A DNA stretch of 64,000 nt from Streptomyces sp. NBC_01497 (GTDB lineage: Bacteria > Actinomycetota > Actinomycetes > Streptomycetales > Streptomycetaceae): assembly GCF_036250695.1 (NCBI RefSeq), contig NZ_CP109427.1, forward strand, positions 1,736,001 through 1,800,000, given 5' to 3'. Below the pieces are notes generated by a model that did no database searches, was not told the DNA's origin, and saw nothing but the letters and a program-made list of their open reading frames with translations. Both the position numbers and the translations under genes were made by a program. This document shows, piece by piece, positions 35,702 through 56,719 of this stretch (its first letter is position 1; each line of letters opens with the position of its first letter).

Positions 35702-37000
35702 TCAGTAGCCCTGAGGCCGTAGCACGAGACAGCACCCGAGCGAGATCAGCACGGCGACGAACAGCACTCCGAAACCGGCCGTGTACGAACCCGTCGCGGT
35801 GAGCAGGGTGCCCATGAGCGCGGGCAGTACGGCGCCGACCAGGTTCGTCAGCGACGAGAACACACTGCTGGAGTACTCGGTCTGCCGTGTCGGCATCAGA
35901 CTGTGCAGCAGCGACCAGTTGGTCACCACGCACCACGCGTTGCCCGCGAGGCCCAGGAAGATGAAGAAACTGTCCACGCCCGCGTTGGTGAACAGGGCGG
36001 TGCCGGCGATCCCGACGCCCTCCACGGCGAAGCCCCAGGCCGCCCAGCCCGCGCGTTTGACCTTGCGGTCGGAGGCCCGGCCCACCAGCACCATGACCAC
36101 GATGGACAGCACGTTGGCGACCGTCAGCACGATGCCGATGTTGCCGAGGGTGACGTGGCGGGCCTGCTGGAGGTAGAGCGGCACCCAGGTGACCAGCCCG
36201 TAGAACGGGGCGTTGGTGCCGATGTACATCAGCATGGTCAGCCAGTAGCGGTAGTTGCGAAACGGCGACTCCGGCCCGAGCTTGGGCACCGTGGTCGTGT
36301 TCTCGAAGCGGTCCGCCTCGATGTGCTGGACCTCTTCCTCGCTCATCCCGTCCGCGTTCTCGGGCCGGTCCTGGAGGAAGATCAGCACGATCAGGAAGGC
36401 GAACACGGCCGCGACGACGGCCTGGGTGAGGAAGGTGACCCGCCATCCCGTACCGCTGATCATCACCGTCGTCAGCGAGCTGCCGATCGCGGATCCGACG
36501 AAGATCCCGGAGAGCCAGGACGCGTTGGCGCGCCCCCGTTCCTGCATCGGGAACCAGCGTGCGGTCAGGGTGTGCGCGACGGGGTAGAAGCACGCCTCAC
36601 CGATGGCGAGCAGGATGCGCGTCCCGTACAGCTCGTTCAGGCTGTTCACGAACGGTGGCAGTGCCAGGGCGAGCACCCAGATCGCGGTGCCGATGAGCAT
36701 CGACTTGCGTGGTCCGAGCCGTTTCAGCACGAACCCCCAGCCGAACAGCGCGATGCCGTAGGCGTAGAGGAAGAGGCTGGTCAGCCACCCCACGGAGCCG
36801 GGGTGCTTGTCCAGACCGAACTGGTGGCTGAAGGCGTGGTCGGTGACGATGACGCCGATGGAGGACTTGCTCAACTGCGCCACTGAGAAGGCGATCAGCA
36901 GCGGCAGACTGACGTGGAGCCATCTCTGTGCGTGCCGGCCGCGCAGGGCGGTCCGGCGGCGGGGTGGGGATTCGGCCCTCAGTTCTGTCTCGGGTGTCAC
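35702..37000 (-). CDS. MFS transporter of the anion/aromatic-acid symporter type
   Basis: 432 residues, twelve helices. The first loop motif KRLGPRKSMLIGTAIW (between helices 2 and 3) and the N-terminal HAQRWLHVSLPLLIAFSVAQLSKSSIGV resemble the anion:cation symporter/phthalate permease group that imports aromatic and sugar acids. The start is the GTG at 37000, with AAGGA 9 nt upstream. It lies downstream of the methyltransferase and bicupin genes on the same strand, with a 254-bp gap. With the ABC importer, this island has two uptake systems. Confidence 0.85.
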   Translation of the reverse strand: MTPETELRAESPPRRRTALRGRHAQRWLHVSLPLLIAFSVAQLSKSSIGVIVTDHAFSHQFGLDKHPGSVGWLTSLFLYAYGIALFGWGFVLKRLGPRKSMLIGTAIWVLALALPPFVNSLNELYGTRILLAIGEACFYPVAHTLTARWFPMQERGRANASWLSGIFVGSAIGSSLTTVMISGTGWRVTFLTQAVVAAVFAFLIVLIFLQDRPENADGMSEEEVQHIEADRFENTTTVPKLGPESPFRNYRYWLTMLMYIGTNAPFYGLVTWVPLYLQQARHVTLGNIGIVLTVANVLSIVVMVLVGRASDRKVKRAGWAAWGFAVEGVGIAGTALFTNAGVDSFFIFLGLAGNAWCVVTNWSLLHSLMPTRQTEYSSSVFSSLTNLVGAVLPALMGTLLTATGSYTAGFGVLFVAVLISLGCCLVLRPQGY

Positions 37001-37254
37001 GTGCTTGCGTCCTTGCATGTACGTACGAGTGAGCACGCGGCCCTGCGGTGCCGGGCGCGCGTGCTCAAGGGGTGCGCGGCAGTGCGCGGTGTCTTTTCTT
37101 GACGGTGTGCGGGCCCTGGCGGGCCGCCCGACGGTTCTCCCGCCCGACGGCGTTCGGGCCCGGTGGTCTCCCGGGGTGTGCCGGGTGTCCTTCGGTGCCC
37201 GGCCCGCGCGTCGCGCAGCGCACAGGATGCGCGACGCAGGGCCGGGGCGGTGGA

Positions 37255-37947
37255 TCAGGCCGGTGGGCGGCGGCCCACGAACAGGCAGGTGTAGAACGCC
37301 TTCCAGGCGACGTCCACCTCGCTCAGACCCGCGGCACGATACCCGTCGAGGTGGTCGTCCACCGCGGTGAGCGGGTAGTGGTGATGGTGTGCCGGTGCGG
37401 GCTTGCGCGGGGCCCAGTACTTCTTGCGCACCGACCGGTAGCGCCGGTCCCACACGTCCTCGGGACCGATGTGGTCCAGATTGACCAGCCAGCCGTCCGG
37501 GGCCAGCAGCCCCGCCGCCTCCTGGTAGAAGGCGTGCAGTTCCGCCCGGTCGAGGTGGTGGCTGGCCCGCGAGCTCGCGATGACGTCCGCGCCCTCGGGG
37601 ATCCCCGCCGCGCGCAGCGCCTGCATGTCGCCGACCTGGAAGGTGACCCGGTCGCCGAAGCCGGCCAGGTCCTTCCTCGCCTGCTGGAGCATGGTCTCGG
37701 AGACGTCCGACCAGACGCCCCTGGCCTTCGGGAACGCGGTGAGCAGGACGGAGAGGAACTTCCCCGCGCCACTCGCGATGTCCACGATGAGCGTGGGCTC
37801 CGGTTTGTCCTCCGCCACCATTTGCGCCGCGATCGTGCGGGGCAGTTCGAGCAGGTCCCGCGTGCCGTTCGGGTCGCCGCCCAGCCACGCCGTGGCGAAG
37901 GCCGGGTCGGACCACACCTGGGCCGCGGTCGGGCCCTCTTGTCGCAT
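37255..37947 (-). CDS. Class I SAM-dependent methyltransferase
   Basis: 230 residues. The SAM site is LIVDIASGAGKFLSVLL near residue 55, with VWSDVSETMLQQARKDL and VTFQVGDMQAL next, and SRASHHLDRAELHAFYQEAAGLLAPDGWLVNLDHIG after motif IV. The start was set at 37947 by GAGGAG 5 nt upstream. The gene is 69 nt downstream of the bicupin gene and probably in its operon. The acceptor is unknown; it could protect a ring hydroxyl or methylate a pathway intermediate. Confidence 0.85.
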   Translation of the reverse strand: MRQEGPTAAQVWSDPAFATAWLGGDPNGTRDLLELPRTIAAQMVAEDKPEPTLIVDIASGAGKFLSVLLTAFPKARGVWSDVSETMLQQARKDLAGFGDRVTFQVGDMQALRAAGIPEGADVIASSRASHHLDRAELHAFYQEAAGLLAPDGWLVNLDHIGPEDVWDRRYRSVRKKYWAPRKPAPAHHHHYPLTAVDDHLDGYRAAGLSEVDVAWKAFYTCLFVGRRPPA

Positions 37948-38016: not shown

Positions 38017-39033
38017 TCAGGAGCGGGCTCCCGCGGGACCGTCGTACTCCGGGGCGTTCTCCAGGAACACGGTGTTCTGGTACCCGAGCTCCTTGAACTG
38101 GCGGTTCTGCGCGGAGATCAGCTTCAGGGGCGACCCGTCGGCGGCGAAGTGCTGGGCGACGGTGTTGTGCGGTACGTAGACCGTGTCGCCCTCCTTGAAG
38201 TCGTGGCGCGTGGGCTCGTTGGCGATGCGGGCGTAGTACTTCTCCGCGATCTCGGCCTCGACCTCCCAGTGAAGGCTGTAGCCGGATCCCTCACGCACGT
38301 ACAGGACCTCGTCGGCCATCGTCCAGCGCTTGCCGGAACGGCTGCCCGCCGGGACCTCCAGGACGTACGTGTCCACACTGAAGGTGCGGACGTCGTCGCC
38401 GGGCTGCGACATGGTGCGGACCTTGCCCAGCGGCGTGGACTCCCAGGGGGTGTCGGCCGACTTGACGACCTTGCGCATCTTCTCGACGTTCGGCGTCCAC
38501 AGCTGCGACCAGTCGACGCGCTCGCCGAACTTGTCGGGGCTGTCGATGGGGCCGCTGCGGCCCTGCTGGATGAGGCCGAGGTACATCCACAGCGACTTGG
38601 CCTTGAAGATGAGGCACTTCGCCGTCTGGTCGTACGGGTTGAAGTGCCGGTGCACCGAGTCGGTGTGGACGATCACGAGGTCGTCCTTCTCCCACTCGTA
38701 ACGCTGGTCGTCGTGGATCTCGTAGCCCGCGCCCTCCAGGATGTAGAAGGCGGCCTCGTTCTGGTGGCCGTGGCCGTGGTTCGAGGACTGCGGGGGCAGT
38801 TCGACGAAGTGGACCTGGAGGCTCTGGGTGAGGAACGGGTCGTCGCCGGGGCCGATCCGCCACCAGGTACGGGACTTCTCCGAGTCGCCGCTGTGGCCGA
38901 CCTTCGCGTCGTCGACGACGATCGAGTCGTCGCGGACACGGGGGGCGTCCAGCTGGCTGCGGCGGAACTCCTTGAGGCCGTAGGTCTCCGACGTGATCCC
39001 CCGCAGGAAGACCCGCCCCTTCTTCTCGCTCAT
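38017..39033 (-). CDS. Bicupin protein A (gentisate 1,2-dioxygenase-like)
   Basis: 338 residues with two cupin domains. The N-terminal cupin has the full metal site: HGHGHQNEAAFYILEGAGYEI near residues 87-105 (His, His, Glu) and HTDSVHRHFN near 125. The C-terminal cupin (RTFSVDTYVLEVPAGSRSG, then VYVPHNTVAQHF) keeps a late His but lacks the early HxH pair. Gentisate, homogentisate and salicylate ring-cleaving dioxygenases are bicupins that bind Fe2+, so ring opening is a plausible role beside a Rieske oxygenase. An isomerase or metal-storage role remains possible. Confidence 0.75.
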   Translation of the reverse strand: MSEKKGRVFLRGITSETYGLKEFRRSQLDAPRVRDDSIVVDDAKVGHSGDSEKSRTWWRIGPGDDPFLTQSLQVHFVELPPQSSNHGHGHQNEAAFYILEGAGYEIHDDQRYEWEKDDLVIVHTDSVHRHFNPYDQTAKCLIFKAKSLWMYLGLIQQGRSGPIDSPDKFGERVDWSQLWTPNVEKMRKVVKSADTPWESTPLGKVRTMSQPGDDVRTFSVDTYVLEVPAGSRSGKRWTMADEVLYVREGSGYSLHWEVEAEIAEKYYARIANEPTRHDFKEGDTVYVPHNTVAQHFAADGSPLKLISAQNRQFKELGYQNTVFLENAPEYDGPAGARS

Positions 39034-39395: not shown

Positions 39396-40676
39396 ATGCC
39401 ACGCAAGGACGGCGAAGGCCGCGCGACGAGTGACGGCACACTGATCGTCGGCGCCAGCCAGGCCGGGCTCCAACTGGCCGTCTCGCTGCGGCAGCTGGGC
39501 GACACCCGGCCGATCACCCTGGTCGGCGAGGAGCCCCACGCGCCCTACCAGCGGCCACCCCTGTCGAAGGAGTTCCTGGCGGGCACGGCGGAGCTCGACT
39601 CGCTGGCCTTCCGGACGCCGTCCTTCTACCCGGACCACGACATCGACCTGGTGTGCGGCGAGCGGATCACCAGCCTGCGGCCCGGCCGCGCGCTGACCGC
39701 GTCCGGCCGTGAACTGCCCTACGCGCGGCTCGCCCTGACCACCGGGGCGGGCCCCAGGCGGCTGTCCGTGCCCGGCGCTGAGCTGGCCGGAGTGTGTTAC
39801 CTCCGCGATCACGACGATGCGGCCGGCCTGCGCCGCGCACTCGCCTCCGCCTCGCGCGCGGTGGTGGTGGGCGGCGGCTTCATCGGCCTGGAAGCCGCGT
39901 CCGCCGCGCGCGCGGCAGGGTTGTCGGTGACCGTCGTCGAGGCGGCGGGACGGCTGCTGGGCCGGGCCGTGGCACCGGTCGTCTCCGACTTCTACGCGCG
40001 GGCGCACCGGCGCAGGGGCGTTCAGGTGCTGCTCTCGACCGGGGTGACGGCCTTCGAGCCGGACGCCGACGGCCGCCGGGTGTCCGGCGTGGTCCTCGCG
40101 GACGGCACGGTCCTCCCCACCGACCTGGTCCTGGTCGGCGTCGGAGCGGTACCGAGGACGGAACTTGCCGAGCAGCTCGGCCTGGTGTGCGAGGGCGGCA
40201 TCGTGGTCGACGCGTCCGCCAGGACGAGCGACCCGTCCGTGGTCGCGGCGGGCGACTGCACGGTGCAGCCGCACCCGCTGACCGGCGAGGGCCGAGTGCG
40301 GATCGAGTCGGTGCAGAACGCCGTGGCGCAGGCGCAGATCGCGGCCGCCACACTGCTCGGGCGCACCGCACCGGCGAAGGCCGTGCCGTGGTTCTGGTCG
40401 TACCAGGGGGACCTGCGCCTGCAGATCGCGGGACTGTCGCTCGGGCACGACACGACCGTGGTGCGCGGCACGGTCGACGACGAGCACTTCTCGGTCCTCT
40501 ACTACCGCGACGGCCGGCTCCTCGCGGTGGACGCCGTCAACCGCCCGGCGGACTACATGGCGGTCCGCAAGGCGCTGACCCAGGGGGCGACCATCCCGGC
40601 GGGCGCCGCGGCCGATGCCGAGGCCCCGCTGAAGTCGCTGATCACCGGGGTGGAGAGCGCGGCGCCCGCCGCGTGA
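39396..40676 (+). CDS. NAD(P)H-dependent ferredoxin reductase (rhodocoxin/putidaredoxin reductase type)
   Basis: 426 residues. FAD site IVGASQAGLQLAVSLRQLG near residue 17, RPPLSKEFLAG near 52, NAD site AVVVGGGFIGLEAA near 152, and the late FAD motif VVAAGDC near 285. A C-terminal reductase domain (WFWSYQGDLRLQIAGL) closes it. It passes electrons from NAD(P)H to the [2Fe-2S] ferredoxin encoded 3.4 kb away, which feeds the Rieske oxygenase. It is transcribed opposite to bicupin A from a shared promoter region. Confidence 0.93.
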   Translation: MPRKDGEGRATSDGTLIVGASQAGLQLAVSLRQLGDTRPITLVGEEPHAPYQRPPLSKEFLAGTAELDSLAFRTPSFYPDHDIDLVCGERITSLRPGRALTASGRELPYARLALTTGAGPRRLSVPGAELAGVCYLRDHDDAAGLRRALASASRAVVVGGGFIGLEAASAARAAGLSVTVVEAAGRLLGRAVAPVVSDFYARAHRRRGVQVLLSTGVTAFEPDADGRRVSGVVLADGTVLPTDLVLVGVGAVPRTELAEQLGLVCEGGIVVDASARTSDPSVVAAGDCTVQPHPLTGEGRVRIESVQNAVAQAQIAAATLLGRTAPAKAVPWFWSYQGDLRLQIAGLSLGHDTTVVRGTVDDEHFSVLYYRDGRLLAVDAVNRPADYMAVRKALTQGATIPAGAAADAEAPLKSLITGVESAAPAA

Positions 40677-40829: not shown

Positions 40830-42440
40830 TCAGGCCCCGGCGCGCGGGTCCTCACTGAAGATCAGGGACTTGATGGTCACGGGGACCGTGTGGGACGGGA
40901 AGCGCTGCCGGCCGATGTCGATGTAGTCGAAGTCCCGCAGGCTGACCCCGTCGATCACGAGGATCTCCCCCGGCACCTCCAACTCGTCCCGCAGCAGCCG
41001 CCCCAGGGTCATCGCGACATCGCCGTCCAGCATCACGTACACCGGTCGTCCCAGCGCGGTGCGCTCGGCGAGTCCGTCGCGGATGCCGGTGGCCAGCGCC
41101 ACCACCCGTTCGTAGCTCGGCAGACCCTGCCAGCCCATCGCGAGGGCCACGTCCGCGTCCGGCACCACGTCGAGCGCGACCAGCTGGCGGCGGACCGCCG
41201 CGGCGATCTCCGTCGCGTCCACGCTCTCAGCCAACTCGTAGGCAGGTTTGGCCACTTGCAGGTTGCGGCGGGGCAGCAGTGCCTCCGGGGAGGTGATGAA
41301 ACCGGTGTTGCCGCTGAGCTGGACGCTGTACTCGCTCGCGCCGAGCGCGGTCGCCCGGATGCACTCCCCCGCCGGCAGCAGCGGGTAGGGCAGCGCACCG
41401 GTGTCGAGCCGGCGGCGCAGGGCGTGGCCGAGGGGCATGCCGAGGTCGCCGAAGCGTCGCGTCTCCCGTTCGTAGACGTATTCGGCGACTCCGCCGGAGA
41501 CCATCAGGCCGTCGATCCGGCCGAGCGCGCCGAGCGGCTCCGTGAGGTACAGATCGGCCACGTCGGCGGGCGGCACCTCCGCCGTGAGGGCGGTGATCAG
41601 GGTGTCGGCCATCGTCTCCGCGACCTTCCCGATCTCCTCGGGCGTCGCCGCGTCACCCCGCTCCCAGGCGTATCCGGCACGGGCCGCGTGGGTCCGGCCC
41701 GCCGGGTCGAGCCGCACGATGCTGCCCGCCTCGTCGGTGACCTGGAGCCGGCCGCCGATGTGGACGGCGGCGGTGCGCAGCACCCGGCCGTCCTCGACGA
41801 GGGCGAGCTTCGTGGTGCCGCCGCCGATGTCGACGTTGAGGATGCGCTGCCGCCGCTCGTACGAGGCCTGCGCGGCGCCCGACCCGTAGGCGGCGAGCAT
41901 GGCCTCCATGTGGTGCCCGGCGGTCGCCGTCACGAGTTCGCCCCCGCGCTCGGCGAGCACACCCGCGATGGCCGCCGCGTTCTGCCGCCGCAGCGCCTCA
42001 CCGGTGAGGATGACGACGCCCGTGTCCACCTGGTCCGGGTGCACACGGGCCGCGTTGTAGGCGCGGTCGATGATCGAGCCGAGCGCCTGCGCGTCGATGC
42101 TCTCGGCGCTCGCGTACGGGGTGAGTTCGACCGGCGAGCGGTAGGTGGTCGCGCGGCGCACGACGATGTACCGGCTGGTCATCTCCTCGCTGATGCGGCG
42201 CAGCCGCAGTTCGGAGAAGACCACCTGGGTGCCCGACGAGCCGATGTCCATGCCGACGCTGCGCAGGGTGACGTTGTCCTGCTGCCAGATCGGGTTGTCC
42301 TGCAGCGGGCCGAGCGGCTCGTCGTCGTGGTCGTGGTCGCCGCCCGGGGCGTACGCGGCGGAGTACACGGCGGCTGCTTCCGCCGTGCCGTCGTCGTGCC
42401 GGTGGTGGTGGCCGTGGTGGTGGTGCTCGTCGTGCTGCAC
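40830..42440 (-). CDS. EutA-family (ASKHA) ATPase with His-rich N-terminus
   Basis: 536 residues. The ATPase fold reads VGMDIGSSGTQVVFSELRL near residue 63 (phosphate 1), VVILTGEALRR, then RILNVDIGGGTTKLALV near 215 (phosphate 2), typical of EutA, the factor that reactivates B12-dependent ethanolamine ammonia-lyase. No eutB or eutC is present. The first 40 residues hold a cluster rich in His and Asp (HDEHHHHGHHHRHDD), like metal-loading domains of UreE, HypB or SlyD. The start is the GTG at 42440 with GAGGAG 7 nt upstream. It may reactivate or metallate another enzyme of the island. Confidence 0.85.
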   Translation of the reverse strand: MQHDEHHHHGHHHRHDDGTAEAAAVYSAAYAPGGDHDHDDEPLGPLQDNPIWQQDNVTLRSVGMDIGSSGTQVVFSELRLRRISEEMTSRYIVVRRATTYRSPVELTPYASAESIDAQALGSIIDRAYNAARVHPDQVDTGVVILTGEALRRQNAAAIAGVLAERGGELVTATAGHHMEAMLAAYGSGAAQASYERRQRILNVDIGGGTTKLALVEDGRVLRTAAVHIGGRLQVTDEAGSIVRLDPAGRTHAARAGYAWERGDAATPEEIGKVAETMADTLITALTAEVPPADVADLYLTEPLGALGRIDGLMVSGGVAEYVYERETRRFGDLGMPLGHALRRRLDTGALPYPLLPAGECIRATALGASEYSVQLSGNTGFITSPEALLPRRNLQVAKPAYELAESVDATEIAAAVRRQLVALDVVPDADVALAMGWQGLPSYERVVALATGIRDGLAERTALGRPVYVMLDGDVAMTLGRLLRDELEVPGEILVIDGVSLRDFDYIDIGRQRFPSHTVPVTIKSLIFSEDPRAGA

Positions 42441-42590: not shown

Positions 42591-43706
42591 TCACGGCTTG
42601 GGCGGCAGGCCCGGGATCTCGGCCTCGTAGACCTCGTCCATCTGCGGCTTCGCGCCGGTCTTCGCCAGTTCGTCGCGGAACATGTCGCGCACGACGGGCG
42701 ACTCGTCCGCGTAGTCGATCTGGTCGCCGCCGATGCGCATGCTGATCCACGCCTTCGGCACACCCTGCGCGTTGCGGACCGACACCACCTCGTGCTTGAA
42801 GGCGAGGTAACGGCCGGGCTCCTCACCGGTGTTGAAGTGCTGGTGGAACCACATGTTGGGCGGCACGATCAGCGAGCCGGGACCCCACTCGTAGCGGCGG
42901 GGCTCCTCGCCCTCCGGCCACATCAGGCTGTAGCCGGTGCCGGACAGGATGATCACGTGCGCGCCGGGGCCGTGCCGGTGGCCCTTCTTGTACGTACCGA
43001 CGGGGAACTGCGAGATGTGACTGTTCATCGACCCGCGGGCCATGTTGAAGCGGATGTGGCCGCCGCCCGCGCCGCGCTCCTTGGCCTCGACCAGCGGCAG
43101 GTTGACCGCGTCCGCGACGAAGTTGGTGTCGAGGAGGAGGCCCTTCTGCTCGCCCTTGGGCGAGAAGTAGTCGGGCTCGCCGTTGAAGCGGTTCGGGAAG
43201 TCCTTCTCCGTGCCGAAGACGAAGTCGACGTCGTCGTAGAGGTTGATGATGGGCGGCATGTTCGTCGAGGAGACGAACCGCGCCGCCTTCTTGCCCGAGC
43301 CGTTGAAGTGCTGGTGGTGGGCGTTGAGCGGGATGGCGAAGAGGGATCCCGGGCCCCACTCGAAGGTGACCTCGCCGCCCTGGTCGTTCCACACCTTCGT
43401 GGAGCCCTGGCCCTCCAGGACCAGGATCATCTCCTCGAACAGCTGGCGCTGCGGGGCCAGCTTGCCGCCCGCGGGGATCTCGCACACGTAGCAGTCGTTG
43501 GACGTACGGGTGGCCTCGTGGTTGATGAACACACCCCGGCCGCCCCTGCGCTCCCAGTCCTTGAGCTCCACGGTGCGCAGGTCGGGAACGTAGTGCGCGG
43601 CGATGATGTCCAGGCCCTCGTCCGCCACCCAGCGGGTGTAGGGGGAGTCCTTCTCGGTGGCGAACTTCGCCGCCAGGCTGTCGTTGACGATCGCGTCCTT
43701 GGCCAT
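42591..43706 (-). CDS. Bicupin protein B
   Basis: 371 residues with two cupin repeats. The first is APQRQLFEEMILVLEGQGST followed by IPLNAHHQHFNGS; the second has GHRHGPGAHVIILSGTGYSL (near residue 270) and VPPNMWFHQHFNTG. The complete HxH...E-like and late His set is in the C-terminal cupin, the reverse of bicupin A. It does not closely match a characterised dioxygenase that I recognise; ring-cleaving or isomerase activity is possible. The ATG at 43706 has GGGAGGG 6 nt upstream. GntR-type sites lie 132-141 and 260-270 nt upstream. Confidence 0.7.
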   Translation of the reverse strand: MAKDAIVNDSLAAKFATEKDSPYTRWVADEGLDIIAAHYVPDLRTVELKDWERRGGRGVFINHEATRTSNDCYVCEIPAGGKLAPQRQLFEEMILVLEGQGSTKVWNDQGGEVTFEWGPGSLFAIPLNAHHQHFNGSGKKAARFVSSTNMPPIINLYDDVDFVFGTEKDFPNRFNGEPDYFSPKGEQKGLLLDTNFVADAVNLPLVEAKERGAGGGHIRFNMARGSMNSHISQFPVGTYKKGHRHGPGAHVIILSGTGYSLMWPEGEEPRRYEWGPGSLIVPPNMWFHQHFNTGEEPGRYLAFKHEVVSVRNAQGVPKAWISMRIGGDQIDYADESPVVRDMFRDELAKTGAKPQMDEVYEAEIPGLPPKP

Positions 43707-48367: not shown

Positions 48368-51112
48368 ATGGCGCGACATCGGCACGTGCGTTCCCCGAAG
48401 CCGGCCCGCCCCGTGGACGGCGGGGGGCGACAGGCCCCGGTCGGCATCAGGTCGCTGGCGAGCCTGCGCAGCATCGTGGGCCAGATGTTCCTGCTCCAGC
48501 TCGTGGTGGTGCTCCTGATCGCGGTCGGCGCGGGCCTCCTGCTGGTGTACACGATTCAGCACGAGAAGTCCGAGAACGCCTCGCAGCGGGCGCTCGCGGT
48601 GGCCGAGGGCTTCGCCAACGCTCCGGGGGTGGCCACGGCGATGACCTCGCCCGGCGCGTCGGAGGTGCTCCAGCCGCAGGCCCGCGCCGCGATGCAGGGC
48701 GCCGACGTCGATTTCGTGACGGTCGTGGACCGGCAGGGAATACGCCTCACGTCCGCCATTCCCAGTCTGATCGGCCGCCGCAGCAACCAGGACATGGCGC
48801 CGCTGCTGGCCGGCCGGACGGTCCAGAGCCGCACCACCGGCACCCTCAGCTCCCAGTTCCGGGCGTTCGTCCCCGTGGAGAACGATGACGGGAAAGTGGT
48901 CGGCGCCGTCGGCGCCGCGGTGAGGATGAGCAGCGTCAGCGACTCCGTGAACCGGCAGCTCCCGCTGCTGCTGGGGGGCGCCGCCGCCGCCGTCGCCGTC
49001 ATCACCGGGGGCGCCGCGCTGATCAGCAGGCGATTGCTGCGGCAGACCCACGGCCTGGGGCCCACGGAGATCACCCGCATGTACGAGCACCACGACGCGG
49101 TGTTGCACGCCGCGCGGGAGGGCGTGCTCATCGTGGACGGCGACGGCATCCTGCTGCTCGCGAACGACGAGGCCCACCGGCTGCTCGAACTGCCCGCCGA
49201 CGCCCGGGGCCGTCCCGTGGCGGAGCTGGGCCTACCGCCTCCGATGGCGGAACTGCTGGTGTCGAACCGTACGGCCACCGACGAGGTGCACCTCGTCGGT
49301 GGCCGGGTGCTGGCCGTCAACCAGCGCCGTACAGGGACGGACGGTGGCCCGCCGGGCAGCGTGGCGACGCTGCGCGACTCCACGGAGCTGCGCGCACTGT
49401 CGGGCCGGGCCGAGGCGGCGAGCAGCCGGCTCGAACTTCTGTACGACGCCGGGATAGGCATCGGCACCACGCTCGACGTGCGCAGGACCGCCGAGGAGCT
49501 GGCCGAGGTGGCCGTCCCCCAGTTCTCCGACTTCGCCACCGTGGACCTGGTCGACCCGGTACTGCGCGGCGACGAGCCCCCGGGGGGGACCCAGTACACG
49601 TTCCGCCGCGTCGCCCTCGTCGGGGTCGTGGACACCGATCCACTGTTCCGCCCAGGGGCGCGGCTGCGGCTGGCCAAGGACTCGCCCCAGGTACGGGGAC
49701 TGCTCTCCGGGCATGCCGTACTGGAGCCCGACCTGCGCAAGGCGACCAGCTGGCAGGCGCAGGACCCGCAGCGCGCGGCGCGGGTCGTGTCCTACGGCAT
49801 CAGGTCACTGATCTCGGTGCCGCTGAACACGCGGGACGCCGTGCTCGGGGTGGCGAACTTCTGGCGGTCCACGGACTCGGGCGCCTTCGAGGACGAGGAC
49901 CTGGCCCTGGCGGAGGAGCTGGCGGCACGGGCCGCCGTGTCCATCGACAACGCCCGCCGCTACACGCGGGAGCACGACATGGCCGTGGCCCTGCAGCGCA
50001 GCCTGCTGCCGAGCGCCCTTCCCGAGCAGAGCGCGCTGGACGTGGCGTACCGCTACCTGCCCGCGCAGAAGAGTGTCGGCGGCGACTGGTTCGACGTCAT
50101 TCCGCTGCCCGGCGCGCGGGTGGCCCTCGTGGTGGGCGACGTCGTCGGTCAGGGCGTGGCGGCGGCGGTGACCATGGGCCGGCTGCGCACGGCCGTGCAC
50201 GTCTTCTCGGCGCTCGACCTGCCGCCCGACGAACTGCTGGCGCGCATGGACGAGCTCGCCGACCGCATCGACCGGGAGAACTCCGCGGAGTCCGACCGCG
50301 GGATCATGGGCGCGACCTGCCTGTACGCGATCTACGACCCTGTCGACCGCCGCTGCACCATGGCGCGGGCCGGGCATCTGCCGCCGGCCCTGGTGGACCC
50401 GGACGGCGCGGTGCGGTTCCTGGACCTGCCGGCGGGCCCGCCGCTGGGCGTGGGCGGCCTGCCCTTCGAGTCGGCGGAGGTGGTGGTCCCCGAGGGCAGC
50501 GAGCTGGTCCTGTACACGGACGGCCTGGTGGAGGAGCGCGGCCGGGACATCGACGAGGGGATGGCGGACCTGGCCGCGGTGCTGTCCCGCGCTCGGGGCG
50601 AGCCGGAGGAGGTGTGCACCGAGGTGCTCGACGCACTGCTGGGCGGCCGGGCGGCGGACGACACCGCGCTGCTCGTGGCGCGGACCCGCGTGCTGCCGCG
50701 CGAGCGGGTGGCGCGCTGGGAGGTGCCGGGCGATCCGGCCGCGGTCGCGGATGTGCGGACCGTCGCGGCGGCGAAGCTCGCCGAGTGGGGTCTCGCGGAG
50801 TCGGGGTTCACCACCGAGCTGATCCTGAGCGAGCTCGTCACCAACGCGATCCGGTACGCGGCGGGGCCCATCACCGTGCGGCTGCTGCTCGACCAGCGAC
50901 TGATCTGCGAGGTGACCGACGGCAGCGGCACCTCCCCCCACCTGGGCCACGCCGCGGACACCGACGAGGGCGGTCGCGGACTGTTCCTGGTGGCGCAGCT
51001 CGCGGAGCGGTGGGGCACCCGGTATGCGGAGGGCGGCAAGATCATCTGGGCCGAGCAGCAGCTCCCCGCGGGGTACGCGCCACCGCGCGGCGCGCTCACG
51101 AACCCCGCGTGA
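48368..51112 (+). CDS. Membrane sensor SpoIIE-type phosphatase with cache, PAS, GAF and ATPase domains
   Basis: 914 residues in this order: helix 1 (about 38-62), an extracellular single-cache domain of DcuS/CitA type (about 68-170; VDFVTVVDRQGIRLT), helix 2 (about 178-198), PAS (about 215-320), GAF (about 345-540), PP2C/SpoIIE phosphatase (about 555-770; VGGDWFDVIPL, VVGDVVGQG, LYTDGLVEERG) and a C-terminal RsbW-like ATPase (about 780-900; ELVTNAIRYAAG, DEGGRGLFLV). It would sense an external carboxylate and drive partner switching of sigma factors. It starts 115 nt after the hydrolase gene, within the catabolic island. Confidence 0.9.
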   Translation: MARHRHVRSPKPARPVDGGGRQAPVGIRSLASLRSIVGQMFLLQLVVVLLIAVGAGLLLVYTIQHEKSENASQRALAVAEGFANAPGVATAMTSPGASEVLQPQARAAMQGADVDFVTVVDRQGIRLTSAIPSLIGRRSNQDMAPLLAGRTVQSRTTGTLSSQFRAFVPVENDDGKVVGAVGAAVRMSSVSDSVNRQLPLLLGGAAAAVAVITGGAALISRRLLRQTHGLGPTEITRMYEHHDAVLHAAREGVLIVDGDGILLLANDEAHRLLELPADARGRPVAELGLPPPMAELLVSNRTATDEVHLVGGRVLAVNQRRTGTDGGPPGSVATLRDSTELRALSGRAEAASSRLELLYDAGIGIGTTLDVRRTAEELAEVAVPQFSDFATVDLVDPVLRGDEPPGGTQYTFRRVALVGVVDTDPLFRPGARLRLAKDSPQVRGLLSGHAVLEPDLRKATSWQAQDPQRAARVVSYGIRSLISVPLNTRDAVLGVANFWRSTDSGAFEDEDLALAEELAARAAVSIDNARRYTREHDMAVALQRSLLPSALPEQSALDVAYRYLPAQKSVGGDWFDVIPLPGARVALVVGDVVGQGVAAAVTMGRLRTAVHVFSALDLPPDELLARMDELADRIDRENSAESDRGIMGATCLYAIYDPVDRRCTMARAGHLPPALVDPDGAVRFLDLPAGPPLGVGGLPFESAEVVVPEGSELVLYTDGLVEERGRDIDEGMADLAAVLSRARGEPEEVCTEVLDALLGGRAADDTALLVARTRVLPRERVARWEVPGDPAAVADVRTVAAAKLAEWGLAESGFTTELILSELVTNAIRYAAGPITVRLLLDQRLICEVTDGSGTSPHLGHAADTDEGGRGLFLVAQLAERWGTRYAEGGKIIWAEQQLPAGYAPPRGALTNPA

Positions 51113-51303: not shown

Positions 51304-51762
51304 TCAGGACAGCGTCTCGCCGCGCTCCAGGGCGGCGATCTGAGCCACCCTGCGGGCGTGCACACCGCCCTTGAACGGGGTCGTCAGCCAGCGGTCGGCC
51401 ACCTTGCGCGCCTCCAGCGCGGGCAGCGTCTTCGCGGCGAGCACCAGGACGTTCGCGTCGTTGTTGCCGCGCGAGATGCCGGCGCTCCACTCGTCGTGGC
51501 ACAGCCCGGCCCTGATGCCGCGGATCTTGTTGCAGGCGACGGTCTCGCCGAGGCCGCTGCCGCCGAGGACGATGCCCCGGTCCGCGCGGCCGGCGACCAC
51601 CTCGCCGCAGACGTCGGCACACAGCGCCGGGTAGTCGACGACGGTCGCGGGGTCGGGGGCGCCACCGCGGTCGTCCACCGCGTACCCCTCGGCGGTGAGC
51701 CACCGGACGAGGTCGTCGCGCAGGGCGGTGCCGTTGTGGTCGGCCGTGATCGCGACCCGCAT
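51304..51762 (-). CDS. RpiB/LacAB family sugar-phosphate isomerase
   Basis: 152 residues. The RpiB fold is plain: ITADHNGTALRDDLVRWL, GIVLGGSGLGETVACNKIRGIRAGLCHDEWSAG, and NDANVLVLAAKTLPAL. In true RpiB the first motif is SDHAG; here ADHNG is found, and the Cys base of classical RpiB reads GGSGLG (Ser instead of Cys). Members with Ser often act on other aldose/ketose phosphates or tautomerise acids. Its start overlaps the stop of the upstream decarboxylase-like gene (TGATG). A role as keto-enol isomerase in the island is possible. Confidence 0.82.
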   Translation of the reverse strand: MRVAITADHNGTALRDDLVRWLTAEGYAVDDRGGAPDPATVVDYPALCADVCGEVVAGRADRGIVLGGSGLGETVACNKIRGIRAGLCHDEWSAGISRGNNDANVLVLAAKTLPALEARKVADRWLTTPFKGGVHARRVAQIAALERGETLS

Positions 51763-52733
51763 CAGCCCGTCACCTCCAGCGTGCTCGTGGCGAAGACGTC
51801 CTCCAGCGCCGGTGCCCGGCGCAGGATGCGCTGGTCGACCGCGTGGCGCAGCAGTGTGTCGAGCACCGCGCGGTTCGGCGCGATGCCGTACGGGAGGGGG
51901 TCCTCGCCGGTGGTCTCCAGGACGCGCGCGTACATCCGGTCCGTGGCCGTCGGGTTCTCGATCGTCCCGGCGCGCAGCCGCTCGACGTACAGCTGCTTCG
52001 CCCGTGCGAACGCGTCGAAGACCTCGGCGCCCAGTCGCGGCCGCTCCCGCAGGAGTTCGTCCTTCACCACCACCAGGTGGTTGATGGGGTAGAACCCGCG
52101 GGTCTGCAGCGCCGCGTAACCGGCGCCCTCCGCGTCGGGGATCAGTGCCGTGACACCGGGCACGTCCGCCCCCGCGCCGATGCAGGCCGCCAACTCGCCG
52201 TCGGCCAGCATCTGTTCGAGGGTGGTGCCGGCCGGCATCCGGACGACGTTGGACGGCGGCTCGTACGCCTCGACGTGCTCGTCGCCGGAGAGCACCCAGG
52301 TGATGGTCGACAGGTCGACGCCGTACTCCTCCTGGAGGACGGCACGGGCCCACACGCCGGTGGTGACGGTGTAGCCGCGGCTGACCCCGACGCGGTGGCC
52401 CTCCAGGTCCTTGGGGCTCCGGATCCCCGGCCACCGGGACGGGTTGTAGTGGATCGCGCCGTGGTGGAAACCGCGCACGAGGAAGGCGGGGACGGCGGTG
52501 AAGCGGGCGCCGTGCTCCTTGGCGACCAGGTACGTGGTGAGGGCCATCTCGCTGACGTCGAACTCCAGGCCGCGCACCATCCGGCGGAAGGCGTGCACGA
52601 GGACGGGGACCTCCTCGAACGCGAAGGACCAGCCGGCCGGCTTCACCTCTCCCGTCTTGAGCGCCTCGTTGTCACCCTGCGTGCGGGTCACCGCGAGGAG
52701 AGTGCGGTCGCCGGTGCGAGTCGTCTCTGCCAT
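51762..52733 (-). CDS. 4,5-dihydroxyphthalate decarboxylase-like protein 1
   Basis: 323 residues with a type-2 periplasmic-binding fold and no signal peptide, which separates it from transporter proteins. Segments PVLVHAFRRMVRGLEFDVSEMALTTYLVAKEHGARFTAVPAFLVRGFHHGAIHYN and RVGVSRGYTVTTGVWARAVLQEEYG parallel the 4,5-dihydroxyphthalate decarboxylase family. It is translationally coupled to the RpiB-like gene and divergent from the dehydrogenase gene. It differs from the second homologue at 55.7 kb, so the two may act on different ring acids, or one may bind rather than convert. Confidence 0.75.
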   Translation of the reverse strand: MAETTRTGDRTLLAVTRTQGDNEALKTGEVKPAGWSFAFEEVPVLVHAFRRMVRGLEFDVSEMALTTYLVAKEHGARFTAVPAFLVRGFHHGAIHYNPSRWPGIRSPKDLEGHRVGVSRGYTVTTGVWARAVLQEEYGVDLSTITWVLSGDEHVEAYEPPSNVVRMPAGTTLEQMLADGELAACIGAGADVPGVTALIPDAEGAGYAALQTRGFYPINHLVVVKDELLRERPRLGAEVFDAFARAKQLYVERLRAGTIENPTATDRMYARVLETTGEDPLPYGIAPNRAVLDTLLRHAVDQRILRRAPALEDVFATSTLEVTG

Positions 52734-52876: not shown

Positions 52877-53995
52877 ATGGCAGAGCAGGTGTTGGCGGCG
52901 GTCAGGACAGGTCCCGGCACGACAGAGCTGCGCGAGTTCCCGATGCCGGACATTCCGGCCGACGGCGCCCTGTTGAAGGTCGAGGTCGCCGGTATCTGCG
53001 GCACGGACGTCAAGATGTACGGGAAACCGCCGTTCGCCGATCCGGTGATCATGGGCCACGAGAACGTCGGCGTGATCGCCAAGGCCGGACGGGAGTTCAC
53101 CGAGCGCAAGGGCCTCGTCGAGGGCGACCGCATCTTCGTGGAGCACTACGTCGGCTGCATGCGCTGCGCCTGGTGCCACGCGGGCGAGTACCGCCACTGC
53201 GAGGGCACCGACTGGCGCACCAACCCCGACGCGCGCCGCTACGGCTACACGTCGGCGAACAACCCGTACCACCTGTGGGGCGGTTTCGCGCAGTACCTCT
53301 ACCTCCCGTGGAACTCGGTGACGCACCGCGTGCCGGACGGAGTCTCCGCCGAACTGGCCGGACTCGTCACGCCGTTGTCGAACGGCATCGAGTGGGCGCT
53401 GGTGACCGCCGGCGTCGGCTACGCCAGCACCGTCCTCATCCAGGGCCCCGGCCAGCAGGGCCTGTCGCAGGTCGTCGCCTGCAAGCAGGCCGGCGCCTCA
53501 CTGATCATCATGACGGGTACGACGAAGGACGCGGCGCGCCTCGCGATGGCGAAGGAACTCGGCGCGGACGCCGTCATCGACGTCCGGAAGGAGGACGCGC
53601 TGGCGCGGGTCCTCGAACTCACCGGCGGCCGCGGTGTGGACGTCGTGCTCGACTGCACGGCGGGAGCGGGCACCGCGCCCGTCCTGCTCGGCATCGACGC
53701 GCTCAAGCGCCGCGAGGGCACCATGGTCGTGCAGGGCGAGGTCGCGGCCTTCCCCGACTTCCCGCTGAAGAAGCTCACCGAGAAGTCCATCGCCATGAAG
53801 AGCGCACGCGGACACAGCTACCGTGCCTGCGAACTCGCCCTGGAACAGCTCGCGTCGGGCCGCTTCCCGCTGGAGCGGCTGGCCACCCACACCTTCCCGC
53901 TCGCCGACACCGACCGCGCCATCCGCACCGTCGGCGGCGAGAACGGCGAGGACGCGGTGCACGTCTCCCTGCTGCCCTGGGCGGACGCGGCATGA
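52877..53995 (+). CDS. Zinc-dependent medium-chain alcohol dehydrogenase
   Basis: 372 residues. The catalytic zinc site is CGTDVKMYG near residue 36 and GHENVGVI near 60; the structural zinc cysteines are in CMRCAWCHAGEYRHC near 95-110. The nucleotide-binding motif is IQGPGQQGLSQVVA near 195. The protein resembles threonine- and sorbitol-type dehydrogenases. In the island it could oxidise a dihydrodiol or a semialdehyde intermediate. The ATG has GAGGAGAAG 4 nt upstream, and its stop overlaps the LigK-like start (ATGA). Confidence 0.9.
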   Translation: MAEQVLAAVRTGPGTTELREFPMPDIPADGALLKVEVAGICGTDVKMYGKPPFADPVIMGHENVGVIAKAGREFTERKGLVEGDRIFVEHYVGCMRCAWCHAGEYRHCEGTDWRTNPDARRYGYTSANNPYHLWGGFAQYLYLPWNSVTHRVPDGVSAELAGLVTPLSNGIEWALVTAGVGYASTVLIQGPGQQGLSQVVACKQAGASLIIMTGTTKDAARLAMAKELGADAVIDVRKEDALARVLELTGGRGVDVVLDCTAGAGTAPVLLGIDALKRREGTMVVQGEVAAFPDFPLKKLTEKSIAMKSARGHSYRACELALEQLASGRFPLERLATHTFPLADTDRAIRTVGGENGEDAVHVSLLPWADAA

Positions 53996-54684
53996 GCGGC
54001 GTCGTCGTACGGAACACACCGCGCGCGGACGAGGCCGCGGTCTCGGCCCTCGCCGGTTTCGGTGTGGCCACGGTCCACGAGGCGCAGGGCCGGACGGGCC
54101 TGCTCTCCCCCGCCCTGCGGCCCGTCTTCCCTGGCGCGCACATCGCCGGCAGCGCGGTGACGGTCAGCGTGCCGCCCGCCGACAACTGGATGCTGCACGT
54201 CGCCGTCGAGCAGTGCCGGCCGGGCGACATCCTGGTGGTCTCCCCCACCTCCCCTTCCGACGCCGGGTACTTCGGCGAGCTGCTCGCCACCTCGCTCGCG
54301 GCGCGCGGGGTGCGCGGCCTCGTCATCGACGCCGGCTGCCGGGACATCGCGGAGCTGACGGCGATGGGGTTCCCGGTGTGGTCACGGCATGTCTGCGCGT
54401 TCGGCACGGTGAAGGAGACCCTCGGCGACATCGGGCTGCCGCTGGCGTGCGCGGGCCAGATCATCCACTCCGGTGACGTGATCGTCGCGGACGACGACGG
54501 TGCCGTGGTGGTGCCGCGTCTGACGGCGGCGGAGGTGGCGCGGGCCTCCCGGTCCCGCGAGGACAAGGAGGCGCGCTCGCGGGACCGGTACGCGAAGGGC
54601 GAACTCGGCCTGGACGTCAACGCGATGCGTGAGCGCCTCGCGGCGAAGGGCCTGACGTACACCGACTACGAGGGCACGGAGTGA
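53992..54684 (+). CDS. 4-carboxy-4-hydroxy-2-oxoadipate aldolase (LigK/ProA-like, RraA fold)
   Basis: 230 residues of the RraA-like aldolase family. The active-site segment GYFGELLATSLAARGVRGLVIDAGCRD contains the conserved Arg-Asp pair, and the fold closes with DVIVADDDGAVVVPR. LigK cleaves 4-carboxy-4-hydroxy-2-oxoadipate to pyruvate and oxaloacetate and also decarboxylates oxaloacetate. The immediate neighbour is a LigJ homologue, the enzyme that makes its substrate, which supports the assignment over generic RraA. Confidence 0.88.
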   Translation: MSGVVVRNTPRADEAAVSALAGFGVATVHEAQGRTGLLSPALRPVFPGAHIAGSAVTVSVPPADNWMLHVAVEQCRPGDILVVSPTSPSDAGYFGELLATSLAARGVRGLVIDAGCRDIAELTAMGFPVWSRHVCAFGTVKETLGDIGLPLACAGQIIHSGDVIVADDDGAVVVPRLTAAEVARASRSREDKEARSRDRYAKGELGLDVNAMRERLAAKGLTYTDYEGTE

Positions 54685-54691: not shown

Positions 54692-55714
54692 GTGATCATC
54701 GACATCCACGGCCACTACACCACCGCCCCGCCGCAGCTCCAGGCCTTCAGGGACGCCCAGCTGGCGCGCCTGGACGACCCGTCGCTGCCGCTCCCCTCGC
54801 TCGCACCGATCGGTGACGACGCGATCCGGGAGTCCGTCGAGAACCACCAGCTGAAGGTGTTGCGCGAGCGCGGCGGCGACCTGATGCTGTTCTCGCCGAA
54901 GGCGTCCGGCATGGAGCACCACGTCGGCGACCCGGCGACCGCGCGCGCCTGGGCCGAGGTGAGCAACGACCTGGTGCACCGGGTGGCCGGCCTCTTCCCC
55001 GAGCACTTCGCGGCCGTCTGCCAGCTCCCCCAGACCGCGAACGGCCCACTGAACGGCGTGATAGCCGAACTGCGGCGCTGCGTTCAGCAGTTGGGCTTCG
55101 TGGGCTGCAACCTCAACCCCGACCCCTCGGGTGGCCACTGGACGTCGCCGCCCCTGACCGACCCGTACTGGTTCCCGCTGTACGAGGTGCTGGTGGAGCT
55201 CGACGTACCGGCCATGGTGCATGTGTCGACGTCCTGCAACCCGGCGTTCCACACCCTCGGCGCGCACTACCTCAACGCCGACACGTCCGTGTTCATGCAG
55301 TTCGTGGGGAGCGACCTGTTCGACAGGTTCCCCGGCCTGCGGTTCGTCATCCCGCACGGCGGCGGCGCCGTCCCGTACCACTGGGGCCGCTACCGGGGCC
55401 TCGCGATGCGGTCGGGCCTGCCCGACCCGTCGGTCCACCTCATGGACAACGTCTTCTTCGACACCTGTGTCTACCACCAGCCCGGAGTCGACCTGCTGAC
55501 GAGCGTCGTCCCGGCGGGCAACGTGCTGTTCGCCTCGGAGATGCTCGGCGCCGTGCGCGGTGTCGACCCGGACACCGGCATCGCGTGGGACGACACCAAA
55601 CACTACGTGGACGCGACCGGACTCCCGGCCGAGCGGCTCCGCGGGATCTACGAGGACAACGCCCGGCGCGTCTATCCCCGGCTCGACGCACGGCTCACAG
55701 CGGAAGGCAGGTAG
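54692..55714 (+). CDS. 4-oxalomesaconate hydratase (LigJ-like amidohydrolase)
   Basis: 340 residues of the amidohydrolase superfamily (ACMSD branch). The zinc motif is DIHGHYTTAP at the N-terminus. The segment LNPDPSGGHWTSPPLTDPYWFPLYE, the VHVSTSCNPAFHTLGAHYLNADT block and FVIPHGGGAVPYHWGR agree closely with LigJ as I remember it. LigJ hydrates 4-oxalomesaconate in the protocatechuate 4,5-cleavage and gallate pathways. It begins at a GTG 7 nt after the LigK-like stop. The product feeds directly into LigK. Confidence 0.9.
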   Translation: MIIDIHGHYTTAPPQLQAFRDAQLARLDDPSLPLPSLAPIGDDAIRESVENHQLKVLRERGGDLMLFSPKASGMEHHVGDPATARAWAEVSNDLVHRVAGLFPEHFAAVCQLPQTANGPLNGVIAELRRCVQQLGFVGCNLNPDPSGGHWTSPPLTDPYWFPLYEVLVELDVPAMVHVSTSCNPAFHTLGAHYLNADTSVFMQFVGSDLFDRFPGLRFVIPHGGGAVPYHWGRYRGLAMRSGLPDPSVHLMDNVFFDTCVYHQPGVDLLTSVVPAGNVLFASEMLGAVRGVDPDTGIAWDDTKHYVDATGLPAERLRGIYEDNARRVYPRLDARLTAEGR

Positions 55715-55723
55715 AGCGGACCC

Positions 55724-56719
55724 ATGCCCCGACTCAGGCTCACCATGGCGTGCGGCGACTACGACCGCACGCGCGCGCTGTACGAGGACACCATCAGGCC
55801 CGACGGCATCGACCTGACGTATCTGCGGCTGCCGGTGGAGGAGACCTTCTTCCGGATGATGCGCCACCAGGAGTTCGAGGTCGCCGAACTCTCGCTCTCC
55901 TCCTACGTGGTGTCGCTGCGGCAGGACCCCTCACCGTTCGTGGCCCTGCCGGTGTACACCTCGCGGATGTTCCGGCACAGCTCCTGGTACGCGAACGCGG
56001 ACGCGGGCATCGAGTCGCCCGAGGACCTGCGCGGCAAGGTCGTCGGCACGCCCGAGTTCCAGCTCACGGCGTGCGTGTGGATGCGCGGCATCGTCGGCGA
56101 CCGGCACGGCGTGCCGTTCGACGCGTACGAGCACCGCACCGGCGGCCAGGAGACCCCCGGCCGGATCGAGAAGGCGAAGGTCGACCTGGGGGACTCGGTG
56201 AAGATCCGGGCCGTCCCCCGTGACCGCACGCTCTCGCAGATGCTGGCGGAGGGCGAGATCGACGCGCTCGTCACCCCGCGCGTCCCCTCGCCGTTCGCCC
56301 AGGGCGACCCCCGGGTCAAGCGGATCTTCCCCGATGTCATCGGCGCGGAGAAGGCCTACTACGCGGACACCGGCATCTTCCCCATCATGCATGTACTGGT
56401 GGTCCGCAGGGACGTCTACGAGCGCCACCCGTGGGTCGCCCAGTCGCTGTACAAGGCGATGCTGGAGGCCAAGCAGCAGGCGTACACCAGCATGTACGAC
56501 ACGTCCGCGCTGCGCTTCACCCTGCCCTGGCTCACCCCGCAACTGGAGGAGGCCCGCGCCCTGCTGGGCGAGGACTTCTGGTCGTACGGGCTCGGCGAGG
56601 ACAACCACCGGACCCTGTCGACGTTCCTGCGCTACCACCACGAGCAGGGCCTGTCCGACCGGCTCCGCACCCCCGAGGAACTGTTCGCGCCCGAGGCGCT
56701 GGAGTCCGCGGTGATCTGA
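55724..56719 (+). CDS. 4,5-dihydroxyphthalate decarboxylase-like protein 2
   Basis: 331 residues, cytosolic, with a binding-protein fold. The start LRLTMACGDYDRTRALYEDTIRPDGIDLTYL and ELSLSSYVVSLRQ are typical of 4,5-dihydroxyphthalate decarboxylase (Pht5-like), which turns 4,5-dihydroxyphthalate into protocatechuate. FRHSSWYANADAGIESPEDLRGKVVG and PIMHVLVVRRDVYERHPW complete it. It is the last gene of the dehydrogenase-LigK-LigJ operon (9-nt gap) and the better family match of the two homologues. Confidence 0.85.
   Translation: MPRLRLTMACGDYDRTRALYEDTIRPDGIDLTYLRLPVEETFFRMMRHQEFEVAELSLSSYVVSLRQDPSPFVALPVYTSRMFRHSSWYANADAGIESPEDLRGKVVGTPEFQLTACVWMRGIVGDRHGVPFDAYEHRTGGQETPGRIEKAKVDLGDSVKIRAVPRDRTLSQMLAEGEIDALVTPRVPSPFAQGDPRVKRIFPDVIGAEKAYYADTGIFPIMHVLVVRRDVYERHPWVAQSLYKAMLEAKQQAYTSMYDTSALRFTLPWLTPQLEEARALLGEDFWSYGLGEDNHRTLSTFLRYHHEQGLSDRLRTPEELFAPEALESAVI

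Follow-up and report, generated by a model that had tools for sequence, protein, structure and literature searches.

EutA reactivates the cobalamin-dependent ethanolamine ammonia-lyase by exchanging damaged cobalamin. LigJ and LigK take 4-oxalomesaconate to pyruvate and oxaloacetate as lower steps of the gallate and protocatechuate 4,5-cleavage routes. Isophthalate dioxygenase (IPDO) of Comamonas testosteroni KF1 (PDB 9INA/9IOY) holds the two carboxylates with R234 and H257, according to its description (PMC12445078). The available part of the description of the iph cluster (iphA2CBA1) names an oxygenase, a reductase, a transporter, and a dehydrogenase; a cupin, EutA, or LigJ is not mentioned in that part. 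Ring-cleaving bicupins with three histidine ligands are covered in a review (PMC4019311). This report concerns a gene island with relatives of these proteins in a 64,000-nt stretch of DNA (the window), part of the 9.08-Mb genome of Streptomyces sp. NBC_01497.

The island spans about 29886–56719 of the window, beyond the 35702–56719 given by a first-pass annotation of the same DNA. Its genes probably serve the breakdown of a carboxylated aromatic acid, with LigJ and LigK at the end of the route and a EutA-like ATPase (g33) as the partner of a bicupin (g34). The gene inventory is based on a codon-model gene call and on Pfam, NCBIfam, and PDB searches. Relatives of g34 were sought in 84,980 species genomes, and the best 80 of the 435 stretches recovered (77–96% identity; 57 mainly actinobacterial, 14 alphaproteobacterial, and nine betaproteobacterial) were retained for locus counts. 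Counts out of 80 are from tblastn with flanks of at most 10 kb (g33 at 45% coverage); counts out of 82 refer to gene-called loci, window included, for which the gene caller was seeded with tblastn hits.

Rieske oxygenase and lower-pathway genes

The Rieske oxygenase g36 (44444–45730, plus strand) has Rieske and LigXa_C domains and is 47% identical to IPDO over 403 positions (9INA, E 3.1e-131). Eight IPDO determinants are given in PMC12445078 (G172, T175, R234, I246, F249, H257, I294, and F333). The glycine, arginine, and histidine are kept in g36, whereas T175 is replaced by Ser, I246 and I294 by Val, F249 by Arg, and F333 by Ile; Asn stands in place of the pocket residue L198. The equivalents of R234 and H257 (R238 and H261 in g36) are present in all 51 Rieske proteins of the loci, and F249 and L198 are replaced by Arg and Asn in 48 of them (the remaining three, from Betaproteobacteria, have Tyr and Ala). 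From the retained carboxylate ligands together with the added Arg and Asn, we infer that the enzyme acts on a ring that bears two carboxylates in meta position and one more substituent, polar or anionic. The substrate of the pathway would most likely be an isophthalate-type ring (carboxylates meta) with a further polar or acidic group. No support was found in the literature for dipicolinate as the substrate, and no published gene cluster was found for benzene tricarboxylates.

Unlike IPDO, g36 is accompanied by a ferredoxin/reductase pair and by g37. The reductase gene is g32 (39396–40676, plus strand; Pyr_redox_2 and Reductase_C), and the 2Fe-2S ferredoxin gene is g35 (44057–44371, plus strand; Fer2). 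The small protein g37 (45727–46263, plus strand; 178 aa), encoded 3' of the Rieske gene, matches no Pfam family and has no credible counterpart among the PDB sequences. Its AlphaFold2 (AF2) model, with a predicted local distance difference test (pLDDT) score of 84.7, weakly resembles FtsZ in Foldseek (best E 5.4e-4, template-modelling score about 0.5), a likeness of fold only. The Rieske gene was called in 51 and g37 in 47 of the 82 loci, with g37 following most of the closer Rieske orthologs; no g37 match was found beside the 55–58% orthologs of L088, L095, and L106 or the 66% ortholog of Pusillimonas caeni. Possibly, g37 is an extra subunit. Both ends of the protein are conserved (an N-terminal ARAxxAxExRYRI-like motif and a C-terminal LTALRx).

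The lower-pathway enzymes LigJ and LigK are members of their families by sequence. LigK, the 4-carboxy-4-hydroxy-2-oxoadipate (CHA) aldolase g44 (53992–54684, plus strand), scores above the LigK/PcmE equivalog TIGR02798 (318.4 bits, cut-off 304.5). LigJ, the 4-oxalomesaconate hydratase g45 (54692–55714, plus strand), resembles the solved LigJ enzymes 2GWG, 6DWV, and 6DXQ over its full length (E 5.5e-141 to 4.5e-133; inventory values 5.5e-141 for 2GWG and 1.7e-133 for 6DWV/6DXQ). Its HGH at positions 6–8 agrees with the metal-binding His6 and His8 of LigJ; relative to the other ligand positions of LigJ, 178 and 284, its H177 and E283 are one residue off. Since both proteins are true family members, the pathway likely ends in pyruvate and oxaloacetate, with 4-oxalomesaconate entering these last steps. 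In contrast to the protocatechuate 4,5-cleavage pathway, the island yielded no LigAB-, LigC-, LigI-, or LigU-like gene when scanned against the families. The LigB family has one match elsewhere in the genome, at 4.9 Mb (presumably a DODA-like protein), and none in the island.

The genes that would lie between the Rieske step and LigJ belong to several families. The product of g46 (55745–56719, plus strand) matches the solved 4,5-dihydroxyphthalate decarboxylase 9JP7 over residues 2–321 (E 8.8e-89), and g42 (51762–52691, minus strand), which falls below the PF09084 cut-off, is 30% identical to g46. The PanB-like protein g38 (46497–47333, plus strand; PF02548) shares a fold family and two aspartates, presumably Mg ligands, with ketopantoate hydroxymethyltransferase PanB, but it shares 31% identity with the PanB of its own host and reaches 146.3 bits against the PanB equivalog TIGR00222 (cut-off 207.55). 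The Glu of PanB (VVLELVP), which we assume to be catalytic, is replaced in g38 (LLNFTNS), as is the His; g38 is not PanB. The remaining candidates are the alpha/beta hydrolase g39 (47347–48252, plus strand; Abhydrolase_1), which has a Cys nucleophile (GGCVG, C119) and weakly resembles both esterases and hydrolases of meta-cleavage products; the RpiB-like isomerase g41 (51304–51762, minus strand; LacAB_rpiB); and the Zn-dependent dehydrogenase g43 (52877–53995, plus strand; ADH_N and ADH_zinc_N).

A somewhat unlikely alternative is that g36 acts as an O-demethylase or as a hydroxylase on a lignin- or tannin-type acid (e.g., 5-carboxyvanillate or an isophthalate with a methoxy or hydroxy group) and so forms a gallate-like ring, which the bicupin opens straight to 4-oxalomesaconate. 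The LigXa_C domain of g36, the place of LigJ and LigK in gallate and protocatechuate breakdown, the added polar pocket residues, which suit a further ring substituent, and the wide distribution of the family agree with such a route. However, the nearest solved relatives of g36 are phthalate-type dioxygenases rather than demethylases, and direct formation of 4-oxalomesaconate would leave g43, g39, and g38 without a task. It is also doubtful, and slightly more so, that the island serves plain isophthalate or phthalate by way of protocatechuate and 4,5-cleavage, with the bicupin, Zn-dehydrogenase, alpha/beta hydrolase, and RpiB-like protein replacing LigAB, LigC, LigI, and LigU. This route is in keeping with the identity of g36 to IPDO, the universal R234/H257 equivalents, the decarboxylase-like g46, LigJ and LigK, and the absence of a LigB-family gene from the island. 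Yet, because F249 and L198 have become Arg and Asn in nearly all of the Rieske proteins, plain isophthalate is probably not what the enzyme takes; moreover, such a route would have no need of a PanB-like gene or of two genes for decarboxylase-like proteins.

The bicupin and its probable EutA-like partner

Bicupin B, g34 (42591–43706, minus strand; Cupin_2), has an HxH...H motif in its C-terminal cupin. The three histidines (H243, H245, and H288) are invariant in all 30 aligned proteins, and position 249 is Ala in each, so that the motif lacks the Glu ligand. Like the gentisate and salicylate 1,2-dioxygenases, which are three-histidine bicupins, g34 is without the Glu, and its best fold matches in VIA-align are the salicylate/gentisate ring-cleaving bicupins. 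It differs from them in that its intact motif is in the C-terminal cupin, in an identity of 11–17%, and in having an ATPase partner; it scores 19.6 bits against the gentisate dioxygenase equivalog TIGR02272 (cut-off 442.1). Foldseek, in contrast to VIA-align, ranks oxalate decarboxylase first for g34, so that the fold comparisons agree only in part with the earlier suggestion of ring opening by a bicupin. In the proposed pathway, g34 would be the enzyme that opens the ring. The other bicupin of the island, bicupin A or g31 (38017–39033, minus strand; Cupin_2), has an HxH motif at 86–88 in the N-terminal cupin and none in the C-terminal cupin; its counterpart in Betaproteobacteria is a pair of adjacent single-cupin genes (families F30 and F23; L088, L095, L106, L109, and others).

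The ATPase g33 (40830–42440, minus strand) shares with EutA a full-length domain match (PF06277, E 1.4e-110) and three intact ATP motifs. It falls below the cut-offs of all four NCBIfam EutA equivalogs matched (best 289.5 vs. 598 bits) and is 30–35% identical to two EutB-linked EutA proteins. It further differs from EutA in its His-rich N-terminal tail, with 11 His in the first 58 residues, and in its association with a bicupin instead of EutB. No such tail was found in the two EutB-linked EutA proteins checked.

The genomic distribution of g33 marks it as the probable partner of g34. Of 396 Actinomycetota genomes, for each of which at most three EutA candidates were scored, 245 match the EutA model, mostly over short stretches, and 11 have full-length matches (12 proteins). 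Six of these 11 genomes encode EutB but lack a g34 match. In the other five EutB is missing, and every EutA-like match lies 83–327 bp from a match to a g34-family bicupin; one of the five holds two such pairs. A weak partial bicupin match (E 2.7e-16) occurs in G437, which has no full-length EutA. EutB matches were absent from the host genome, from 16 of 16 further carriers, and from all five bicupin genomes of the 11-genome test (the host included). The ratio of EutA-like to bicupin genes (families F0 and F35) is 1:1 in 61 of the 82 loci, 2:2 in 12, and 1:3 in one (G341); EutA was not called in eight, seven of which are contigs of 3.5–6.7 kb and the eighth of which (L096) is positive by tblastn. 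Sixty of the 91 F0 bicupin genes directly adjoin EutA, 21 are 2–10 genes away, and for 10 no EutA was called.

Histidine-rich tails occur at either end of these ATPases. At least three His are found in the N-terminal tail of 69 of the 72 EutA1 proteins with a visible N-terminus, and 16 proteins, all from proteobacterial loci, have a C-terminal tail of 43–88 residues with 13–27 His; the 11 EutA2 paralogs have neither tail. Two EutA-like proteins, those of G583 and G538, are exceptions. Taken together, the matched copy numbers, the switch of partner between EutB and bicupin, and the tails, which are of a metal-binding type, suggest that g33 uses ATP to load metal into a three-histidine cupin dioxygenase or to reactivate it. 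The first-pass annotation had recognized the family of this ATPase but not its partnership with the bicupin. A broader proposal is offered tentatively, as possible though not quite probable: His-tailed EutA-fold ATPases would form a new class of proteins that use ATP to load or reactivate three-histidine cupin dioxygenases, corresponding to the P-loop metallochaperones but built on the actin/Hsp70 fold, and the bicupin–ATPase pair would be the central, ring-opening unit of an undescribed but widespread pathway ending in LigJ and LigK.

Two other roles for the ATPase can be weighed against these data. It is unlikely that g33 is itself a catalytic pathway enzyme (e.g., an ATP-dependent carboxylate activator) and the bicupin a mere neighbor. 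ASKHA-fold proteins do include enzymes that act on substrates; the ATP motifs are intact, EutA2 is still paired with a bicupin in spite of having no tail, and proteobacterial loci often have the ATPase and the bicupin some genes apart. Nevertheless, the 1:1 and 2:2 copy numbers, the mutually exclusive occurrence with EutB, and the His tails better suit a metal-handling partner. It is very unlikely that the tails have no specific tie to the cupin and simply buffer metal that enters with a chelating carboxylate through an iron/polyamine-type ATP-binding cassette (ABC) importer. An SBP_bac_6/8-type importer is indeed found in many loci, but L068, L069, and L072, whose fetched stretches show Tct carriers and lack an ABC importer, still keep the His-tailed protein.

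A locus on a Phyllobacterium plasmid bears on the place of the g34/g33 pair in the pathway. It holds a 39% identical bicupin and a EutA-like protein with LigJ (61%), the dehydrogenase (70%), the hydrolase (58%), a g42-like protein (40%), an RraA/LigK-like protein (30%), and Tct carriers; no Rieske match was found in 31 kb of the plasmid. This locus ties the pair to the lower, ring-opening half of the pathway rather than to the Rieske step. Alphaproteobacterial loci with a Rieske gene and no LigJ nearby point the opposite way. Both types of locus fit if the g34/g33 pair stands between the two halves of the pathway.

Other cupin–ATPase pairs were seen in the same set of loci. The bicupin paralog BIC35, 31–32% identical, adjoins a tail-less EutA paralog in seven of seven BIC35 loci (L081, L090, L098, L100, L102, L104, and L110; the EutA of L090 was called in two pieces). 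An AAA+ ATPase gene adjoins bicupin family BIC18 in 17 of 20 loci (e.g., L059:8828–10779, L074:566–2529, and L036:6695–8593), with no AAA gene called in the other three; BIC18 is a second example, within these islands, of a cupin that has an ATPase to itself.

Conservation and proposed course of the pathway

Within the order of the host, g34 is rare (8 of 391 genomes, its own included), and the core gene order is retained in six of the seven other genomes that bear it. Over the 80 loci, tblastn found g33 in 72, g36 in 51, g37 in 46, g39 in 37, g38 in 36, g43 in 32 (three at just 27–30% identity), g44 and g41 in 28 each, and g45 in 27; g42 and g46, which cross-match, were found in 42 each. Seven of the eight loci without g33 are contigs of 3.5–6.7 kb, and in L079 the contig ends within the gene. 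The constant genes of the proteobacterial loci are g34, g33 (12 of 14 alphaproteobacterial and five of nine betaproteobacterial loci), and g36 (10 of 14 and three of nine); g38, g39, g41, g43, g44, and g45 were not found within the flanks of these 23 loci.

Sixteen whole genomes were picked from the 80 loci, 13 without and three with a Rieske gene in the fetched flank. A Rieske ortholog (66–85% identity) is present in all 16 and a LigJ ortholog (62–75%) in 14; the only match in G391 (38%) is interrupted by an internal stop, and the metagenome-assembled genome (MAG) G392 has no match. Twelve of the 14 LigJ orthologs share a contig with the best Rieske match and are at most about 43 kb away from it. 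LigJ of G398 is on another contig, and in G405, a member of the Rhizobiales and the sole alphaproteobacterium of the 16, it is about 700 kb from the Rieske match. LigK is above the family cut-off in 13 of the 16 and slightly below it in G401, where it adjoins LigJ; no LigK ortholog was found in G405 or G392, and none of 14 named control genomes passed the cut-off.

Longer stretches show the set more completely. Mycolicibacterium stellerae has nearly the entire gene set, as do Blastococcus, Nonomuraea, and Microbacterium once the g34 loci on the same contigs are added. A Nitriliruptorales MAG has ten genes (g36–g39 and g41–g46) on a single 12.6-kb contig, and an Actinophytocola MAG is similar. 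A 60-kb stretch of the betaproteobacterium Pusillimonas caeni has g33, g34, two Rieske genes, g38, g39, g42, g43, g45, g46, and the split g31, with no match to g37, g41, g44, g32, or g35 in the stretch; LigK sits on another contig. The 35-kb stretch of G405 has only g33, g34, g36, g37, a g46-like gene, carriers, a BIC35/EutA2 pair, and a few accessory families. Because the gene set recurs in other genera, the island is beyond chance, and it is a conserved pathway rather than a local mixture. Loss of co-occurrence across genomes had been named beforehand as a refuting result; the genes co-occur in Actinobacteria and in Pusillimonas, and in Alphaproteobacteria only in part.

In the proposed pathway, the substrate would be taken up through ABC and major facilitator superfamily (MFS) carriers, and its ring would be hydroxylated by the Rieske system g32, g35, and g36, with g37. 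Dehydrogenation via g43 and decarboxylation via g42/g46 would be followed by ring opening by g34, acting as a three-histidine non-haem dioxygenase. The products of g38, g39, and g41 would then trim the product to 4-oxalomesaconate, which LigJ would hydrate and LigK cleave in an aldol reaction to pyruvate and oxaloacetate. The His-rich tail of g33 would bind metal, and ATP would be used, in EutA-like fashion, to load or restore the metal of the cupin. Gene content, linkage, the family membership of LigJ and LigK, the switch of EutA partner, the His tails, and the conserved carboxylate ligands can be seen in the sequences themselves; the substrate, the order of these steps, ring opening by g34, and metal loading by g33 are inferences from them. 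The first-pass annotation had outlined a similar course. Its hydroxylation of a carboxylated aromatic is favored by the isophthalate carboxylate ligands kept in the Rieske pocket, its decarboxylation by the match of g46 to 9JP7, and its entry into the LigJ/LigK route by the persistence of both genes, mostly linked, in the tested genomes, with the exceptions given above. It is most improbable that the island is a non-aromatic polycarboxylate pathway assembled from recruited families: the cupin, PanB-like, RpiB-like, and aldolase families are generic, and Tct carriers move non-aromatic acids as well, but the Rieske pocket with its isophthalate ligands, the membership of LigJ and LigK, and the likeness of g46 to a decarboxylase speak against it.

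A related stretch is found in a genome of the same genus (G341, C1:6998106–7020256, L029–L030). It contains three g34-like bicupins, one His-tailed EutA-like gene, a distant LigJ-like gene, three LigK-like genes, and a 32% identical Rieske-like protein, and is perhaps the same chemistry applied to another substrate.

Island context and significance

The left extension of the island (29886–35604) consists of an ABC importer and a GntR regulator and is kept beside the island in close relatives. The importer comprises an ATPase with a TOBE domain (g25, 29886–31031, minus strand; ABC_tran and TOBE_2), a permease (g26, 31051–32835, minus strand; BPD_transp_1), and a solute-binding protein (g27, 33243–34292, minus strand; SBP_bac_6/8). 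Related proteins occur in 48 (at any identity), 40, and 43 of the 80 loci, respectively, those of g27 often at only 25–34% identity. The GntR/FCD regulator g28 (34900–35604, plus strand; GntR and FCD) is found in 25 of the 80 loci and in none of the 23 proteobacterial ones. Less frequent are the MFS transporter g29 (35702–36883, minus strand; MFS_1; four of 80 loci) and an accessory S-adenosylmethionine (SAM) methyltransferase, g30 (37255–37947, minus strand; Methyltransf_25; seven of 80). The SpoIIE-type phosphatase g40 (48413–51112; cache, PAS, and GAF domains) occurs in three of the 82 gene-called loci, the window and its close relatives L033 and L034, and looks like a passenger. A search for an operator motif shared between the intergenic regions of the island gave only GC-rich matches of the chance type.

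Every gene named in the first-pass annotation was recovered. The gene call with family and PDB searches bore out the three-component Rieske system, and family or PDB matches did so for the RpiB-like protein, the Zn-dehydrogenase, LigK, and LigJ; family searches and motifs agreed on the EutA-family ATPase, the PanB homologue, and the Cys-nucleophile hydrolase. The two bicupins do have unlike metal sites, and the two dihydroxyphthalate-decarboxylase-type proteins were found again, g46 by its PDB match and g42 only by its identity to g46. The MFS transporter, the SAM methyltransferase, the SpoIIE-type phosphatase, g37, the ABC importer, and the GntR regulator had been absent from that list.

The first-pass annotation knew of no characterized pathway with this gene set, and a literature search, with subscription journals mostly outside its scope, found no published example. 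The term “cupin” does not occur in the accessible parts of PMC13040137 and PMC9836352. The island is possibly a new variant of aromatic ring-cleavage catabolism, and the maturation principle within it possibly new as well. The g34 family is large (at least 7,486 relatives among 8,000 scored candidates, with many of the 120 listed coming from metagenomes) and highly conserved, which points to a natural aromatic substrate, one for which a described degradation route was not found. The pairing also raises the question of whether a EutA-fold ATPase can serve a metalloenzyme that is free of cobalamin. Several g34-family bicupins are named “ethanolamine ammonia lyase-activating protein,” a name that would be misleading if the EutA-fold ATPase serves the cupin. 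To our knowledge, no cupin dioxygenase has a maturation system; if the proposed role of g33 is true, the cupin dioxygenases would gain one.

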